Source: Maribacter halichondriae
GTDB lineage: Bacteria; Bacteroidota; Bacteroidia; Flavobacteriales; Flavobacteriaceae
NCBI RefSeq assembly: GCF_027474825.1
Contig: NZ_CP107030.1
Span: 1-64,000 of the forward strand
Direction of reading: 5' to 3'
DNA: 64,000 nt
Both the position numbers and the translations under genes were made by a program. This document shows, piece by piece, positions 10,921 through 63,723 of this stretch (position 1 is the stretch's first letter; every line of letters begins with the position of its first letter). A model generated the notes under the pieces. The model did not search any database. It saw only the letters and a program-made list of their open reading frames with translations, and was not told where the DNA came from.

Positions 10921-10988
10921 CACACTATTAAATCAACCTCTGACGAAAATCGTGAACGTTGCTTTACGTACAATGTTAAAACAAGACC

Positions 10989-25695: not shown

Positions 25696-25760
25696 GGTAC
25701 GAGGTACGAGGTACGAGGTACGAGGTACGAGGTACGAGGTACGAGGTACGAGGTACGAGG
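25696..25760. repeat. Tandem heptamer array, unit GGTACGA, about 9.3 copies
   Basis: Perfect head-to-tail copies of a 7-base unit occupy 65 bases between the LytTR terminator and the priA stop. The same motif appears twice inside the cobalamin riboswitch near 55540. Function is unknown; it lies between convergent genes. The copy number may be variable or misassembled. Confidence 0.95.
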
Positions 25761-25823
25761 TTTAAGAAAGCAAATTACAAACTAGTAAGCCATCAACTTT
25801 TTCCGCCGAGATGGTACAGTTTT

Positions 25824-44226: not shown

Positions 44227-44289
44227 CAGTAATCAGTAATCAGTAATCAGTAATCAGTAATCAGTAATCAGTAATCAGTAATCAGTAAT
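44227..44289. repeat. Tandem heptamer array, unit CAGTAAT, 9 copies
   Basis: Nine exact head-to-tail copies of CAGTAAT fill 63 bases after the helical-repeat gene. The unit equals two units of the degenerate array at 35957 and shares CAGT with the array at 60131. A TTGAAC-type hexamer run follows at 44344-44380. Confidence 0.95.
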
Positions 44290-53341: not shown

Positions 53342-55207
53342 TTATAAGGTCAGGTTCAACCCCGCCCTTACATTTCTCCCTCTTGTGGTAAAACCAATGA
53401 TTTCGGTATAATCTTCATTGAACACATTAGACATGGCAAAAAAGAGCTTCAATCTCTTGGAAAGCAACTGATGTTCCACATAAAAGTCGACCAAAGAATA
53501 ATTTGGTAAGGCTATATTTTCAAAGGTTGTAAAATCGGTGTCAAAACGCGTTCCGGTAAGCGCATAGTTCAAAGACGCATTGGTTTTTTCCGAAAGTTCA
53601 TATACCAAACCTGCGTTTATTTTGTGCTTAGGTATTCGAATGGCGGCATCCCCCTTGCGCTCGGTAAATGTATAATTACCTGAAATATTTATCTTATCCA
53701 ATGGATTCCAAACGAACTCTAACTCGACCCCTTGGGCATCAATATTCGAAACGGCATTCGAATATTGTCCGGTTTGATTATTGTAGATTACTGCGTTTTC
53801 CTCCTTCCTATTAAAATAAATACCACTGAACCTTAGTTTTTGTTGTATCGCAAATTCAAATCCGCCTTCGAGCGTTCTATTTTTCTCAGGTTCCAAATCA
53901 GGATTCGCCCCAAATCTACCGAACAATTGGGTCAACGAAGGTGTGATATAGGAGGTGGCATACGAGCCTAGAAATTTAAGATAACCGTTTTGCGTTTCGA
54001 AGCAATATGAAGGATTCACATTATACACAAAGTGATTCCCATATTCCGAATGGTTGTTCAAACGACCGCCGATATTGAGGTTGAACCCAAAATCGGACAC
54101 ATAGACCATATTAACATACGAATCGAGAATGGCAAACTCTTTTTCTGTGTCAAATTCCGTTCTGTCCTTAATATAGTTCAGGCCGATTATAGTATGAAAT
54201 TGACTGTTGATACTTAGCTTATTGTAAAGATCTGCGGTAAAATTATCTCCTTTGAAAGAACTCGGAAAGGCACTGATATTTTCAGAGTCATAGTCCGCAT
54301 ATCCAGTATTGAGGTGCAACGCCCCGTTCGTATACTTGAATTCTGAGGATAATCCGGCCCGCTTCTGTTCACTTTTAAACACATAAGGCGCATCCGTTGG
54401 ACCGAACGATTCGTCATAATCGGTTCTTAGCTTCGTTTGATTTCCATAAACATTGATGGTAAAGGAGTCTGAAAATCGATATCCTAATTTAATGTCGGTA
54501 CTAAAGGTCGAAAATACATCTTCAAGATTTTCAGGGGTTATCAAGGCGGATAATCCTTCTGAATATCGATTTGCAAAAGCAATCTGATAATTCAATTTAT
54601 TCAAGGTTCCGCTAAGATTGACTCCGTTGTAAGCTCTCGCAAGATCATAGTTCTGGTCTTCACTGGTTTGGTTCGTACCCCGACTGGTCTGAAAATTCAA
54701 TTTGACCTTTTCGGGCGACGCATTTTTCGTCTTGATATTGATGACCGCAGTTGCAGCGTTCGTGCCATAAAGCGTACTCGCAGCCCCTTTTATGATTTCG
54801 ATGGATTCGATATTAGTCGCCGAAAGTAACCGAAGATCGTATTCCTGAGAAGAGGATGATGGGTCGCTTACACGAACGCCATCGATAAGCACCAAAACCT
54901 GGCGACCCCGTCCACCCCGGGCAAAAACTCCCAAAATGGTTCCTTCCCTACCCCGGCTTCCGGCAATTTCGATGCCGCTTTTGGTGTTGATGATCTCGGC
55001 TATGGACCTACCTTGATTTCTTTCAAGCTCTTCCGAAGAAATCTTGATGACGGTCTTGCCCGAATTTTCACGCTTCAGTTCAAAACGCGAATCACTTACT
55101 ACGACTTCATCCAATAATTGAATTTTCGTGGTGTCGTTTTGCTGCTGAGCAGCAGCATTAGTGCATAACAGTACACTGGCGCAAAGGCCTAAAAACTTTT
55201 TGCTCAT
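53342..55207 (-). CDS. TonB-dependent receptor, probable cobalamin transporter (BtuB-like)
   Basis: An outer-membrane receptor of about 621 aa. Start at 55207 (MSKKFLGLCASVLLC), which begins the signal peptide; the upstream ATG adds 14 residues. A TonB-box-like LLDEVVVSD leads into the plug domain (SIAEIINTKSGIEIAG, RQVLVLIDGVRVSDP) and a 22-strand-type barrel ending NVRAGLNLTL. The cobalamin riboswitch directly upstream on the same strand supports vitamin B12 or corrinoid as substrate. btuF-btuC-btuD-like genes diverge from it. Confidence 0.93.
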   Translation of the reverse strand: MSKKFLGLCASVLLCTNAAAQQQNDTTKIQLLDEVVVSDSRFELKRENSGKTVIKISSEELERNQGRSIAEIINTKSGIEIAGSRGREGTILGVFARGGRGRQVLVLIDGVRVSDPSSSSQEYDLRLLSATNIESIEIIKGAASTLYGTNAATAVINIKTKNASPEKVKLNFQTSRGTNQTSEDQNYDLARAYNGVNLSGTLNKLNYQIAFANRYSEGLSALITPENLEDVFSTFSTDIKLGYRFSDSFTINVYGNQTKLRTDYDESFGPTDAPYVFKSEQKRAGLSSEFKYTNGALHLNTGYADYDSENISAFPSSFKGDNFTADLYNKLSINSQFHTIIGLNYIKDRTEFDTEKEFAILDSYVNMVYVSDFGFNLNIGGRLNNHSEYGNHFVYNVNPSYCFETQNGYLKFLGSYATSYITPSLTQLFGRFGANPDLEPEKNRTLEGGFEFAIQQKLRFSGIYFNRKEENAVIYNNQTGQYSNAVSNIDAQGVELEFVWNPLDKINISGNYTFTERKGDAAIRIPKHKINAGLVYELSEKTNASLNYALTGTRFDTDFTTFENIALPNYSLVDFYVEHQLLSKRLKLFFAMSNVFNEDYTEIIGFTTRGRNVRAGLNLTL

Positions 55208-55295
55208 TTCGTTTAATTTAATAAACGGGAGAATAGTATGTCTGTACACATACGTAAACTTTTATCCCGAAAGTTTAACATGATTTGTTTGAATT

Positions 55296-55586
55296 GGCAG
55301 GTCTCCTGACTTGCGTACTACCATCGACCTTCCCGCCTGTCCTGAACTTGTTTCAGAATCTGCCGAATTAGGCCTAAACCCTAAATCGACAGATGCCAAA
55401 ATAAATTTGGCACAAGCAGTGGTATTCGAAGAAAATGGTAACCATCCGCCAGCTGGCGGACTTAGCTTACAGTTGCGGGAACAGTTCCAGAATTTTTGAC
55501 CTACCTGGTACGATTTTAGAATTCTTCTTCGTTAATCGTACCTCGTACTTCAAATCACTGGATTCCCTTTTAATCCCATCACCAAT
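55296..55586 (-). promoter_or_regulatory. Cobalamin riboswitch with repeat-derived arms
   Basis: Read on the minus strand from 55586: GGTG then TTAAAAGGGAATCCAGTGA; CTGTTCCCGCAACTGTAAG (55492-55468); GGTTACC-like and CCACTG; GCGGGAAGG; and the B12 box GCAAGTCAGGAGACCTGCC ending at 55296. These are the conserved cobalamin-riboswitch blocks in the right order. The element ends about 90 bases before the receptor start. Variable arms contain two GTACGAG heptamers, a CCGCCAGCTGGCGG palindrome and a CCTGAACTTGTTTCAG repeat. Confidence 0.93.
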
Positions 55587-55687
55587 AAAATGATGCGAAC
55601 CAAATACGCGACCAAAGTAAACATTTTGTTTAATCTTTCGAGCCAAAGTTTAAATAATACTACTTTTGGAATCTTAAACGAACAGTC

Positions 55688-56831
55688 TTGAATAGAATTC
55701 CACTACTTATATCGCTCTTTTTATTTTTCGGCTGTAAGCAAGAAAAAAAGAGGTACTGCCTTTGGAAAATCTAAGTCCGGCAACCACTATTTTTCATGCA
55801 AAAGGGTTTACCGTAGAAAATTCGAATACGGGATTGACCATCATCAAGATTAACTCTCCGTGGCCCAATGCTGAATCCGGATTCACCTATGCCTTGATTC
55901 CAAAGGGTAAAATGGCCGCCATGACCTTGAACAAAAACGAATATGATGCCATTGTTACCGTACCTGTCGAGCGACTCGTGGTTACCTCGACTACACATAT
56001 TGCGGCACTTGAAGCATTGGGAATGTTGGATAGATTGGTAGGGTTCCCTGACACGGAATATATTTCCTCCAAAGAAGCTAGAGAGCGAATCGATCAGGGA
56101 AACATAAAGGAACTCGGCAATAACGAGGCCATCAATACCGAAATGGTCATCGAGCTGAACCCGGATGTAGTTGTCGGATTCGGAATCGATAATCAGAACA
56201 GTGCTTACGAAACCATACAACGCTCCAATATTCCGGTGGTCTATAATGGCGATTGGACCGAAGAAACACCTCTGGGAAAAGCGGAATGGATCAAGTTTTT
56301 CGCTCCCTTCTTTCAAATGGAAAAAAAGCCGATTCCATTTTTAGTGAAATTGAAAAAAACTATAAAGAAATCAAATCCTTGGCAAAAAAAGCTTCCCATC
56401 GACCCACAGTTTTGAGCGGGGCGCTATACAAAGATGTTTGGTACCTTCCTGGAGGAAAGAGCTGGGCCGCTACTTTTTTAGAAGACTCAAACGCCCAATA
56501 TCTCTGGGAGGATACCGAAGTGACGGGAAGTCTCTCCTTAAGTATTGAAAATATACTTGAAAAAGGCAAAACTGCCGAATATTGGGTTTCTCCATCACAA
56601 TATACATCATATAAAGAGTTGGAAGAGGCCAACCAACACTACCTTCAATTCGATGCATTTCAGAAAAAAAAGATGTACACTTTTGCAAAAACTATGGGAG
56701 ACACGGGTGGGTTACTTTACTATGAACTTGCTCCACAGCGACCCGACCTGGTCCTAGAAGATCTTGTCTATATTTTTCATCCCGAACTGCTACCTGACCA
56801 CGAACCTTTCTTTTTCAAACCCCTCGATTGA
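55688..56831 (+). pseudogene. ABC transporter substrate-binding lipoprotein (BtuF-like), two frameshifts
   Basis: A periplasmic binding protein of the FepB/BtuF type. From TTG 55688 a lipoprotein signal is read (MNRIPLLISLFLFFGC, C16); the frame breaks at A7 55743-55749 and again at A7 56321-56327. Adding one A at each gives a continuous protein of about 382 aa: ERLVVTSTTHIAALEALGMLDRLVG, INTEMVIELNPDVVVGFG, QMEKKADSIFSEIEKNY and PTVLSGALYKDVWYLPGG. It precedes a FecCD permease by zero bases of gap. Riboswitch context across the divergent gap suggests corrinoid uptake. Confidence 0.85.
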
Positions 56832-57863
56832 TTGGAAAGATCCAGCACATATCGCATTCCGTTTTTCATCTTGCTGATGGTGCTAGTATTGTGTTTTGGC
56901 CTCAATATCAGTTTGGGCTCGGTTTCGATTCCTTTTTCAGATACTTGGAACAGCATTTTAGGCGGAAATATCGAAAAGGAATCATGGCACTATATTATTT
57001 GGGACTATAGAATTCCAAAGGCCTTCACGGCCATTTTGGTAGGTAGTGGATTGGCACTAAGCGGACTCTTGATGCAAACCTTGTTTCGTAATCCCTTGGC
57101 AGGTCCATTTGTTCTCGGAATCAGTTCGGGGGCAAGTCTTGGTGCCGCCTTGATTATTATGGGTTCTTCTTTGTTTTCCGGAGTTTTGGCTTTTGGGTTT
57201 GCGAACGATGTTGTCTTGGCCATCGCAGCGAGCTTTGGCAGTTTTTTGGTACTCCTCGTAGTGATGGTCGTCGCGTCCAAAGTGAAGGATACCATGGCGT
57301 TGTTGATTATCGGCTTGATGTTCGGTAGTATTACGGCCGCTATCGTAAGCGTACTTTCGTATTTTACGAATGCTGAAAAATTGCAACAATACGTGTATTG
57401 GTCCTTTGGGAGTGTGGGCAATTTATCTTGGCCTCAACTTGCACTTTTAACCAGTATTATCCTAATAGGAATCGTCTTAAGCGTCCTTTCAATCAAATCG
57501 TTAAATGCATTATTGTTGGGGGAAAACTATGCACGTAGTCTGGGGGTCGATATGAAAAAATCGCGCTATCTTATCATTATTGCGACAGGAATACTGGCCG
57601 GGGGCATTACCGCCTTTGCTGGACCAATAGCTTTTGTGGGGCTCGCTGTTCCACATTTAACGAGACAGATTTTCAAAACCACAGACCATACAATTCTTGT
57701 TCCGGCAGTTTTGATGTATGGTGCCGTTTTAATGCTACTCTGTGATACCATTGCCCAATTGCCGACATCAGCAAATGTATTGCCGATTAATGCCATTACA
57801 AGCATCGTAGGTGCGCCGATCGTCATTTGGTTATTGGTGCGAAAACGTAAAATGATATTTTGA
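56832..57863 (+). CDS. FecCD/BtuC family ABC transporter permease
   Basis: An inner-membrane permease of 343 aa with about ten transmembrane helices. Family blocks: DYRIPKAFTAILVGSGLALSG, MQTLFRNPLAGPFVLGISSGA, GGITAFAGPIAFVGLAVPHLTR. It starts with TTG directly after the binding-protein stop and its stop overlaps the ATP-binding protein start (TGATG). The likely substrate is cobalamin, though siderophore transporters share this family. Confidence 0.93.
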   Translation: MERSSTYRIPFFILLMVLVLCFGLNISLGSVSIPFSDTWNSILGGNIEKESWHYIIWDYRIPKAFTAILVGSGLALSGLLMQTLFRNPLAGPFVLGISSGASLGAALIIMGSSLFSGVLAFGFANDVVLAIAASFGSFLVLLVVMVVASKVKDTMALLIIGLMFGSITAAIVSVLSYFTNAEKLQQYVYWSFGSVGNLSWPQLALLTSIILIGIVLSVLSIKSLNALLLGENYARSLGVDMKKSRYLIIIATGILAGGITAFAGPIAFVGLAVPHLTRQIFKTTDHTILVPAVLMYGAVLMLLCDTIAQLPTSANVLPINAITSIVGAPIVIWLLVRKRKMIF

Positions 57864-58660
57864 TGACTGAAATCAAAAAGAAAAATATCGCCCTTCAAAC
57901 TAAAAATCTGTCCATTGGTTACCAAACCAAAAAGGAAGTTACGACTGTTGCCAAAGAAATCAATCTGGAATTACACTCAGGTATTTTGACTGCCATCGTA
58001 GGTGTCAACGGCATTGGAAAATCTACGCTACTGAGAACCCTTGGAAAAGTGCAGCCGCAACTTGAAGGCGAAATCGAAATCAACGGTAAACGACTGCAAG
58101 ATTATAATTCCTTGGAACTGGCATCCGTAGTCAGCCTCGTACTCACGGAACCTCTGGCCTCAAAAAACATGACGGTCTTGGAATTGGTCACTTTGGGAAG
58201 ACAGCCCTATACCAATTGGATCGGGGCGTTGTCCGAAAATGATAAAACAAAAATCAGGGAAGCTCTAGAACGGTTGGAGCTAAAGCCTTTACGGCACAAA
58301 AAATGCTACGAGCTCAGTGACGGACAATTACAGCGGGTTATGATCGCTAGGGCACTGGCGCAGGACACCGCGATAATACTGTTAGACGAACCCACAACGC
58401 ATCTCGACCTCTATCACAAGGTCCGGATATTAAAACTACTAAAATCAATAGCGCACGAAACGAATAAGACCATTGTATTTACGACCCATGAAATTGAAAT
58501 GGCCATTCAACTCTGCGATACCATGTTGTTGTTAGATGGCAAAACAAACCCTTTTGGGCAACCATGTGAGTTAATCGAACGAAAAGCCTTTGAAAACCTC
58601 TTTCCGGCCAATGCCGTTTCCTTCGACTCTCAAACGGGCTCTTTTCGAATTGAAAAATAA
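57863..58660 (+). CDS. ABC transporter ATP-binding protein (FecE/BtuD-like)
   Basis: The ATPase subunit of the import system, 265 aa from ATG 57863, which overlaps the permease stop by one base. Walker A GVNGIGKST near residue 47, signature LSDGQLQR, Walker B IILLDEPTTHLD and switch His in FTTHE are all present. With the binding protein and permease it forms a complete BtuCDF-type set. Confidence 0.94.
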   Translation: MTEIKKKNIALQTKNLSIGYQTKKEVTTVAKEINLELHSGILTAIVGVNGIGKSTLLRTLGKVQPQLEGEIEINGKRLQDYNSLELASVVSLVLTEPLASKNMTVLELVTLGRQPYTNWIGALSENDKTKIREALERLELKPLRHKKCYELSDGQLQRVMIARALAQDTAIILLDEPTTHLDLYHKVRILKLLKSIAHETNKTIVFTTHEIEMAIQLCDTMLLLDGKTNPFGQPCELIERKAFENLFPANAVSFDSQTGSFRIEK

Positions 58661-60136: not shown

Positions 60137-60200
60137 GCAGTAGGCAGTGGTTAGTGGTTAGTGGTTAGTGGTTAGTGGTTAGTGGTTAGTGGTTAGTGGT
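60131..60200. repeat. Heptamer array, CAGTAGG to TAGTGGT units, 10 copies
   Basis: Ten head-to-tail 7-base units overlap the rmuC stop codon region: CAGTAGG twice, CAGTGGT once, TAGTGGT seven times. The first units overlap the last two codons of rmuC. Same period and core as the arrays at 35957 and 44227. Confidence 0.95.
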
Positions 60201-60234
60201 TAAAACTAGTTTTCCTCTTGAAATTGAACGTGAT

Positions 60235-63538: not shown

Positions 63539-63677
63539 TGCGTACCGTAATATGTTAGCCTTAAATGTATCGAAAAGAAAAAGCAATACCAACGACTTTA
63601 TATTAACTTGAACTAGGGTCTCGATATTTTCATTTATTTTTGATTGCCTCACCCGGAATTGCCCAAAAGTAATTCCG

Positions 63678-63696
63678 ACCTCTCCCAAGGAGAGGT
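63678..63696. repeat. ACCTCTCC...GGAGAGGT palindrome
   Basis: A perfect eight-base-arm inverted repeat with a CAA spacer, 28 bases before gnd, in the zwf-gnd divergent gap. It may be an operator or another intergenic repeat; no copy elsewhere in the window was found. Confidence 0.55.
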
Positions 63697-63723
63697 GAAA
63701 AATTAAAAAAAAGGTAGATAATT

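Follow-up and report, generated by a model that had tools for sequence, protein, structure and literature searches.

In cobalamin riboswitches, bound cobalamin stabilises a kissing loop between L5 and L13, and expression falls. Intergenic heptanucleotide repeats of the STRR type reportedly occur within the RNase P RNA of cyanobacteria. Two other systems lie close to the locus described here. Barrick and Breaker (2007; PMC2258182) already described a T-loop in P4 that a helix sometimes interrupts, as well as variable insertions in general. Intergenic arrays of heptamer direct repeats have been described in some Bacteroidetes, Gramella and other flavobacteria among them (MacGregor, 2015; PMC4679880). 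Here, we analyzed a cobalamin riboswitch in a 64,000-nucleotide stretch of the Maribacter halichondriae genome (the window), and found that its P4 T-loop is interrupted by a hairpin made of a dispersed heptad repeat.

First, a covariance-model search identified a complete riboswitch of family RF00174 on the minus strand, with 76.7 bits (gathering score 31.5 bits) and E 3.8e-17 over the full length of the model; it was the sole RF00174 match in the 4.5-Mb genome. This bears out a preliminary description of this DNA, in which all conserved riboswitch blocks were said to be intact. The features of the locus are listed below.

55279..55619, minus strand: cobalamin riboswitch aptamer (RF00174), covariance-model match 1-189.
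55486..55562, minus strand: P4 stem and T-loop, UCCAG (55562-55558) with CUGGA (55490-55486).
55495..55554, minus strand: heptad-repeat hairpin in the P4 T-loop, 60 nt, holding AAGTACGAGGTACGA at 55536-55550.
55445..55460, minus strand: TCCGCCAGCTGGCGGA palindrome, a hairpin of the P6 accessory region; relatives have unrelated hairpins there.
55335..55416, minus strand: second accessory arm, expanded, 82 nt, an optional domain of P8-P11 type with three predicted hairpins, its outline common to L135.
55340..55356, minus strand: CTGAAACAAGTTCAGGA hairpin inside the second accessory arm.
55296..55311, minus strand: B12 box AGTCAGGAGACCTGCC, from the RF00174 match and the sequence.
55256..55276, minus strand: P13 hairpin AAACTTT-CGGGATA-AAAGTTT, from the sequence.
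53342..55207, minus strand: btuB-like TonB-dependent receptor (TIGR01779 TonB-B12, Plug domain), the predicted target of the switch.
55762..58660, plus strand: divergent vitamin B12/iron ABC transporter genes, namely a periplasmic binding protein (two frames), a BtuC-like permease and an ATPase.

The B12 box, the complementarity of L5 and L13 and a B12-related gene downstream are all those of an RF00174 member. The P13 loop CGGGA (55269-55265) is complementary to UCCCG in L5 (55480-55476), which would give a kissing-loop expression platform. A hairpin with a CGGGA loop is also present in congeners, and CGGG lies within 110 nt past the B12 box in 113 of the 126 parsed homologues; thus, the platform looks intact. 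Cobalamin would be expected to stabilise this L5-L13 contact and lower btuB expression. The best NCBIfam match of the receptor is TIGR01779 (E 1.8e-63), under the equivalog cut-off. On the other side of the switch, the btuF-like periplasmic binding protein (55762-56831, plus strand) is read as two overlapping frames, each covering half of Peripla_BP_2; judging from the sequence, the split near homopolymer A runs (about 56317-56360) may be a frameshift or an assembly error. The window also holds an L19-Flavobacteria ribosomal leader (10934-10961, plus strand) and a match to Whalefall-1 RNA (63645-63698, minus strand) that barely passes the gathering threshold.

The canonical P4 loop has 7 nt (UGAAAAU type). 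The loop of the window's switch is interrupted by 60 nt placed between UGA (55557-55555) and AAUU (55494-55491), giving a 5-bp P4, an interrupted loop of 3 nt and 4 nt, and a separate hairpin with a folding z of -5.6. The helix is located within the GNR triloop and the T-loop residues are kept, as in the known class of P4 T-loops with an intervening helix. Of 49 inserted loops, the majority conserve U, G and A, and P4 was intact in each of the 30 long inserts folded. The helix closing the ends of the insert had a mean length of 8.1 bp compared with 2.2 bp in shuffled inserts (n=30), and was missing in two of the 30. Relative to shuffles, the inserts were also more stable (mean folding z -2.5) than the repeat's genomic copies, of which 19 were compared, all taken from the window's own genome, G000 (-0.7; p 5e-5). 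Genus g8 (L040, L138 and L152) has the longest inserts, of 108-122 nt, together with a P4 T-loop whose U is lost or replaced. The P4 loop contact may therefore be damaged or altered there, and the largest inserts may come at the cost of the loop motif.

Second, we analyzed the repeat content of the arms in the whole genome. The 15-mer AAGTACGAGGTACGA of the P4-loop arm had 6 exact and 23 one-mismatch matches; its reversed control had none, and about 0.01 exact matches would be expected by chance according to our estimate. When the aptamer was compared with the genome by BLAST, the top three non-self matches all fell in the P4-loop arm, and no match apart from those in this arm was below E 0.2. 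Copies of the AAGTACGAGGTACGA type were mostly intergenic or at gene ends. Identity at lag 7 within the insert was 0.47, a value as high being reached in none of 300 shuffles. With several near-identical copies and a 7-nt periodicity, the P4 insert is a dispersed intergenic heptad repeat. Most genomic copies were single arms, and no complete copy of the hairpin was seen elsewhere in G000. Sequence of this genome was sampled at even spacing, 400 kb in total. The heptamer GTACGAG, previously noted as a repeat of the window that pairs within this arm, does occur 16 times in the window, but nine of these belong to one tandem array (25697-25759); 55534-55554 does pair with 55495-55515 (21 nt, 81% complementary), but the switch contains a single GTACGAG (55542-55548). 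Perfect tandem heptamer arrays, lying within intergenic DNA or at its borders, were located at 25696-25761 (GGTACGA x9.4), 44227-44289 (CAGTAAT x9) and 60146-60202 (AGTGGTT x8.1).

The other two arms gave a different result. The palindrome arm (CCGCCAGCTGGCGG/TCCGCCAGCTGGCGGA) was rejected as an invasion because relatives carry unrelated hairpins of similar length in the same place, and so was the second accessory arm, where relatives likewise have other hairpins and L135, which belongs to another genus, has the long arm in outline. In homologues, neither position is without a hairpin, and neither arm shows an excess at lag 7. Since CCGCCAGCTGGCGG and CCTGAACTTGTTTCAG lie in P6, an accessory region that is variable as a rule and in which relatives have their own hairpins, they are poor evidence of invasion. 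Both had been thought to be repeated elsewhere in the window, which proved incorrect: each had one match in the 64 kb with up to two mismatches allowed. Genome-wide, CCTGAACTTGTTTCAG had one further exact copy, and the TCCGCCAGCTGGCGGA palindrome was found at 8 places with up to two mismatches (control 0; about 1 by chance, our estimate). Congeners have a ACTGATTGAAGTTCAGT hairpin at the site of the window's TCTGAAACAAGTTCAGGA. Over 60 genomes, the sequence CTGAAACAAGTTCAGGA occurred 10 times, whereas we estimate an expectation of about 0.02; it could thus be a genuine dispersed hairpin. Similar elements were observed in other switches: a CTCGATAGTTATCGGGA hairpin is nested within the heptad insert of L202 (G129), and in L129 (G248) and L150 (G348), from close relatives whose loops are otherwise short, accessory hairpins contain the palindromes CACCCTGAGCGCAGTCGAAGGG and CCCGTTAGTTATCGGT.

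Searches for RF00174 covered about 100 relatives and some 400 members of the family and gave 146 distinct readable switches, namely 91 without an insert, 20 with a short hairpin and 35 with a long insert; this set is enriched for long inserts, as parts of it were chosen by low scores or for specific comparisons. In a family sample of one or two switches per genus (n=64), the corresponding numbers were 49, 8 and 7, and none of 12 switches from other families contained an insert. The insert was at the T-loop site in every case, across at least 27 genera. Over dinucleotide shuffles, identity at lags of 7, 14 and 21 nt had z values of 16, 11 and 5.6 in 33 long inserts, and of 13.8, 9.2 and 5.0 when one insert per genus was used; two-thirds of the genera (18/27) were individually significant (p<0.05), and the remaining nine had no significant 7-nt periodicity. 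The insert sequences differ from genus to genus. G281 contains 29 further matches to its insert. In G303, the insert is a REP-like palindrome, rich in G+C, that matched 11 more times in that genome, and the congener G044 has an empty site (a loop without insert). The genome of the window has two genes of the Y1-transposase family (PF01797), L223 (4428493-4428708, minus strand) and L224 (4000781-4001020, minus strand), which are possible REP-associated transposases unlinked to the switch.

Comparison with close homologues revealed a rapid turnover of the insert. Three switches (L051, L024 and L030) have an interior of the window type and an uninterrupted, canonical P4 loop; the loop is also canonical in the congeneric L032 and L033. 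The congeners G001 and G002 were rejected as clean empty sites because they differ in type throughout the interior, and the three former switches were hence taken for comparison. On a BtuB tree of 82 homologues, the long/not-long state required at least 17 changes, nine of them forced by well-supported branches. The preliminary description, in which repeats were proposed to have invaded the arms and relatives were suggested as the place to look for repeat-free ones, was right in kind on one arm: the P4-loop arm is made of repeats and is absent from close homologues with a like interior. It was wrong on the two P6 accessory hairpins, which have counterparts in relatives, and on the copies in the window. 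Its suggestion that such stems are tolerated because they are self-contained agrees, on comparison, with a P4-arm insert predicted to fold as its own stem closed at the T-loop and with long inserts that fold more stably than genomic copies of the repeat. Mobility is read from the dispersal of copies in the genome and not from a mechanism of transposition, and to call the P4 insert domesticated, with a new function gained, would go beyond the evidence.

How the heptads came to be in the loop can be approached through switches that share one interior. L222, L129, L123 and L150 have the same interior and a P4 loop (L4) of 18, 31, 86 and 86 nt, respectively, and this series suggests that short hairpins grow into heptad hairpins. 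It would also fit an origin in situ, in which slippage during replication expanded a short ancestral hairpin into heptads and their likeness to sequences elsewhere reflects a shared mutational bias; pure tandem heptamer arrays are indeed present in the window, and in many prokaryotes heptamers reportedly outnumber other long simple repeats (Mrazek et al., cited in PMC4679880). Such an origin is possible but somewhat doubtful, because the six exact dispersed copies of AAGTACGAGGTACGA and the 29 own-genome matches of the G281 insert exceed what slippage alone would predict, and the REP-like insert of G303 is not a heptad repeat.

Recombination could also generate presence and absence of the L4 hairpin, if whole interiors were swapped between conserved boxes by homologous exchange and no repeat was inserted. 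In the congeneric pair L151 (G351) and L208 (G156), the flanks are about 95-97% identical and BtuB is near-identical, and the sequence from P4 to the B12 box is unrelated, which implies recombination within the riboswitch. Likewise, near-identical neighbours in genus g140 differ in the whole aptamer interior, beyond the loop, so recombination accounts for part of the pattern of gain and loss. The window itself has a 3' flank closest to its congeners and an interior closest to other genera. However, L4 varies on a single interior in the four switches above, and L051, L024 and L030 likewise differ from L148 and the window in L4. Exchange would cover the spread of inserts and leave their repeat content unexplained; as a replacement for repeat insertion, we consider it rather unlikely.

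Recruitment of the insert for a function, such as pacing or slowing co-transcriptional folding, RNase processing or tuning of the switch, appears improbable. In its favour, the inserts form closed hairpins that exceed shuffles in stability and keep P4 and, mostly, the T-loop residues, but their sequence, length (short hairpins to 122 nt) and presence vary freely among close relatives, which fits tolerated and not required sequence. Similarly improbable is the view that all three arms are ancestral variable arms resembling genomic repeats by chance: it holds for the two accessory arms, given the hairpins at like positions in relatives and the long second arm of L135, and can cite for L4 a hairpin base common to L148 and L083, but for L4 it is already contradicted by genome matches with zero in reversed controls, by a 7-nt periodicity missing from the other arms, and by canonical loops in homologues with a like interior. 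The shared base is the outer stem of the window insert (GATTTGA...TCAAAAATTC), present in L148 and, as a short hairpin, in L083; thus, part of the insert may predate the species, and congeners may have lost it.

Taken as one joint reading, we consider it probable that the window contains an ordinary cobalamin riboswitch, predicted to control btuB, whose P4 T-loop carries a tolerated heptad-repeat hairpin. A 60-nt hairpin of GAAGTAC/GAGGTAC-type heptads, which are dispersed intergenically in this genome, interrupts the GNR triloop between its second and third residues, at a T-loop that would be an exposed insertion point of the fold. Because of this exposure, a repeat landing or expanding there may be tolerated by selection when its arms pair, a helix closes at the loop, and P4 and the T-loop residues stay in place. 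The probable starting point is a short hairpin with some 10-16 extra nt that grows by units of 7 nt. Most likely, the insert contributes little or nothing to regulation, and it would presumably be neutral for the response to the ligand.

In Flavobacteriaceae, the same point appears to have been filled repeatedly by different, mostly repeat-derived hairpins, so the loop looks like a safe site that absorbs stray repeats. A broader view, to which we give about an even chance, is that the T-loop is a hot spot absorbing several unrelated repeat families, with purifying selection passing only those hairpins that close and recombination of interiors spreading variants between species. If true, the aptamer would be both a filter and a record of repeat activity. 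The present results link the variable insertions of this major class of riboswitches, long noted and so far unexplained, to a specific origin in dispersed genomic repeats, and point to one exact structural position at which they are tolerated. Helix gain in structured RNAs thereby becomes testable as the capture of repeats at T-loops, with self-contained folding as the filter.

We found no description of repeat-derived hairpins recurring at one riboswitch T-loop in the open-access literature searched. The locus nevertheless resembles several known systems. It is similar to REP/BIME palindromes in that a dispersed G+C-rich palindrome occupies that loop in G303 and two Y1 genes are present in the window's genome, whereas the window insert is a heptad hairpin. 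As with STRR in cyanobacterial RNase P RNA, intergenic 7-nt repeats are found inside a structured RNA gene; the RNA, the phylum and the repeat are different, degenerate heptads form both arms of the hairpin here, and the recurrence is at one T-loop position in many genera. Like the arrays of MacGregor (2015), they are intergenic heptamers of Bacteroidetes missing from orthologous intergenic regions of close relatives, but those arrays are TAACTGA repeats near start codons, and riboswitches are absent from that paper. Finally, insertion of a helix in the P4 T-loop is known, and the repeat origin and fast turnover are apparently new. In comparison with the RF00174 insertions in the part of PMC2258182 considered here, our results add the origin of the insert from repeats, its copies in the same genome, its 7-nt periodicity and its fast turnover.
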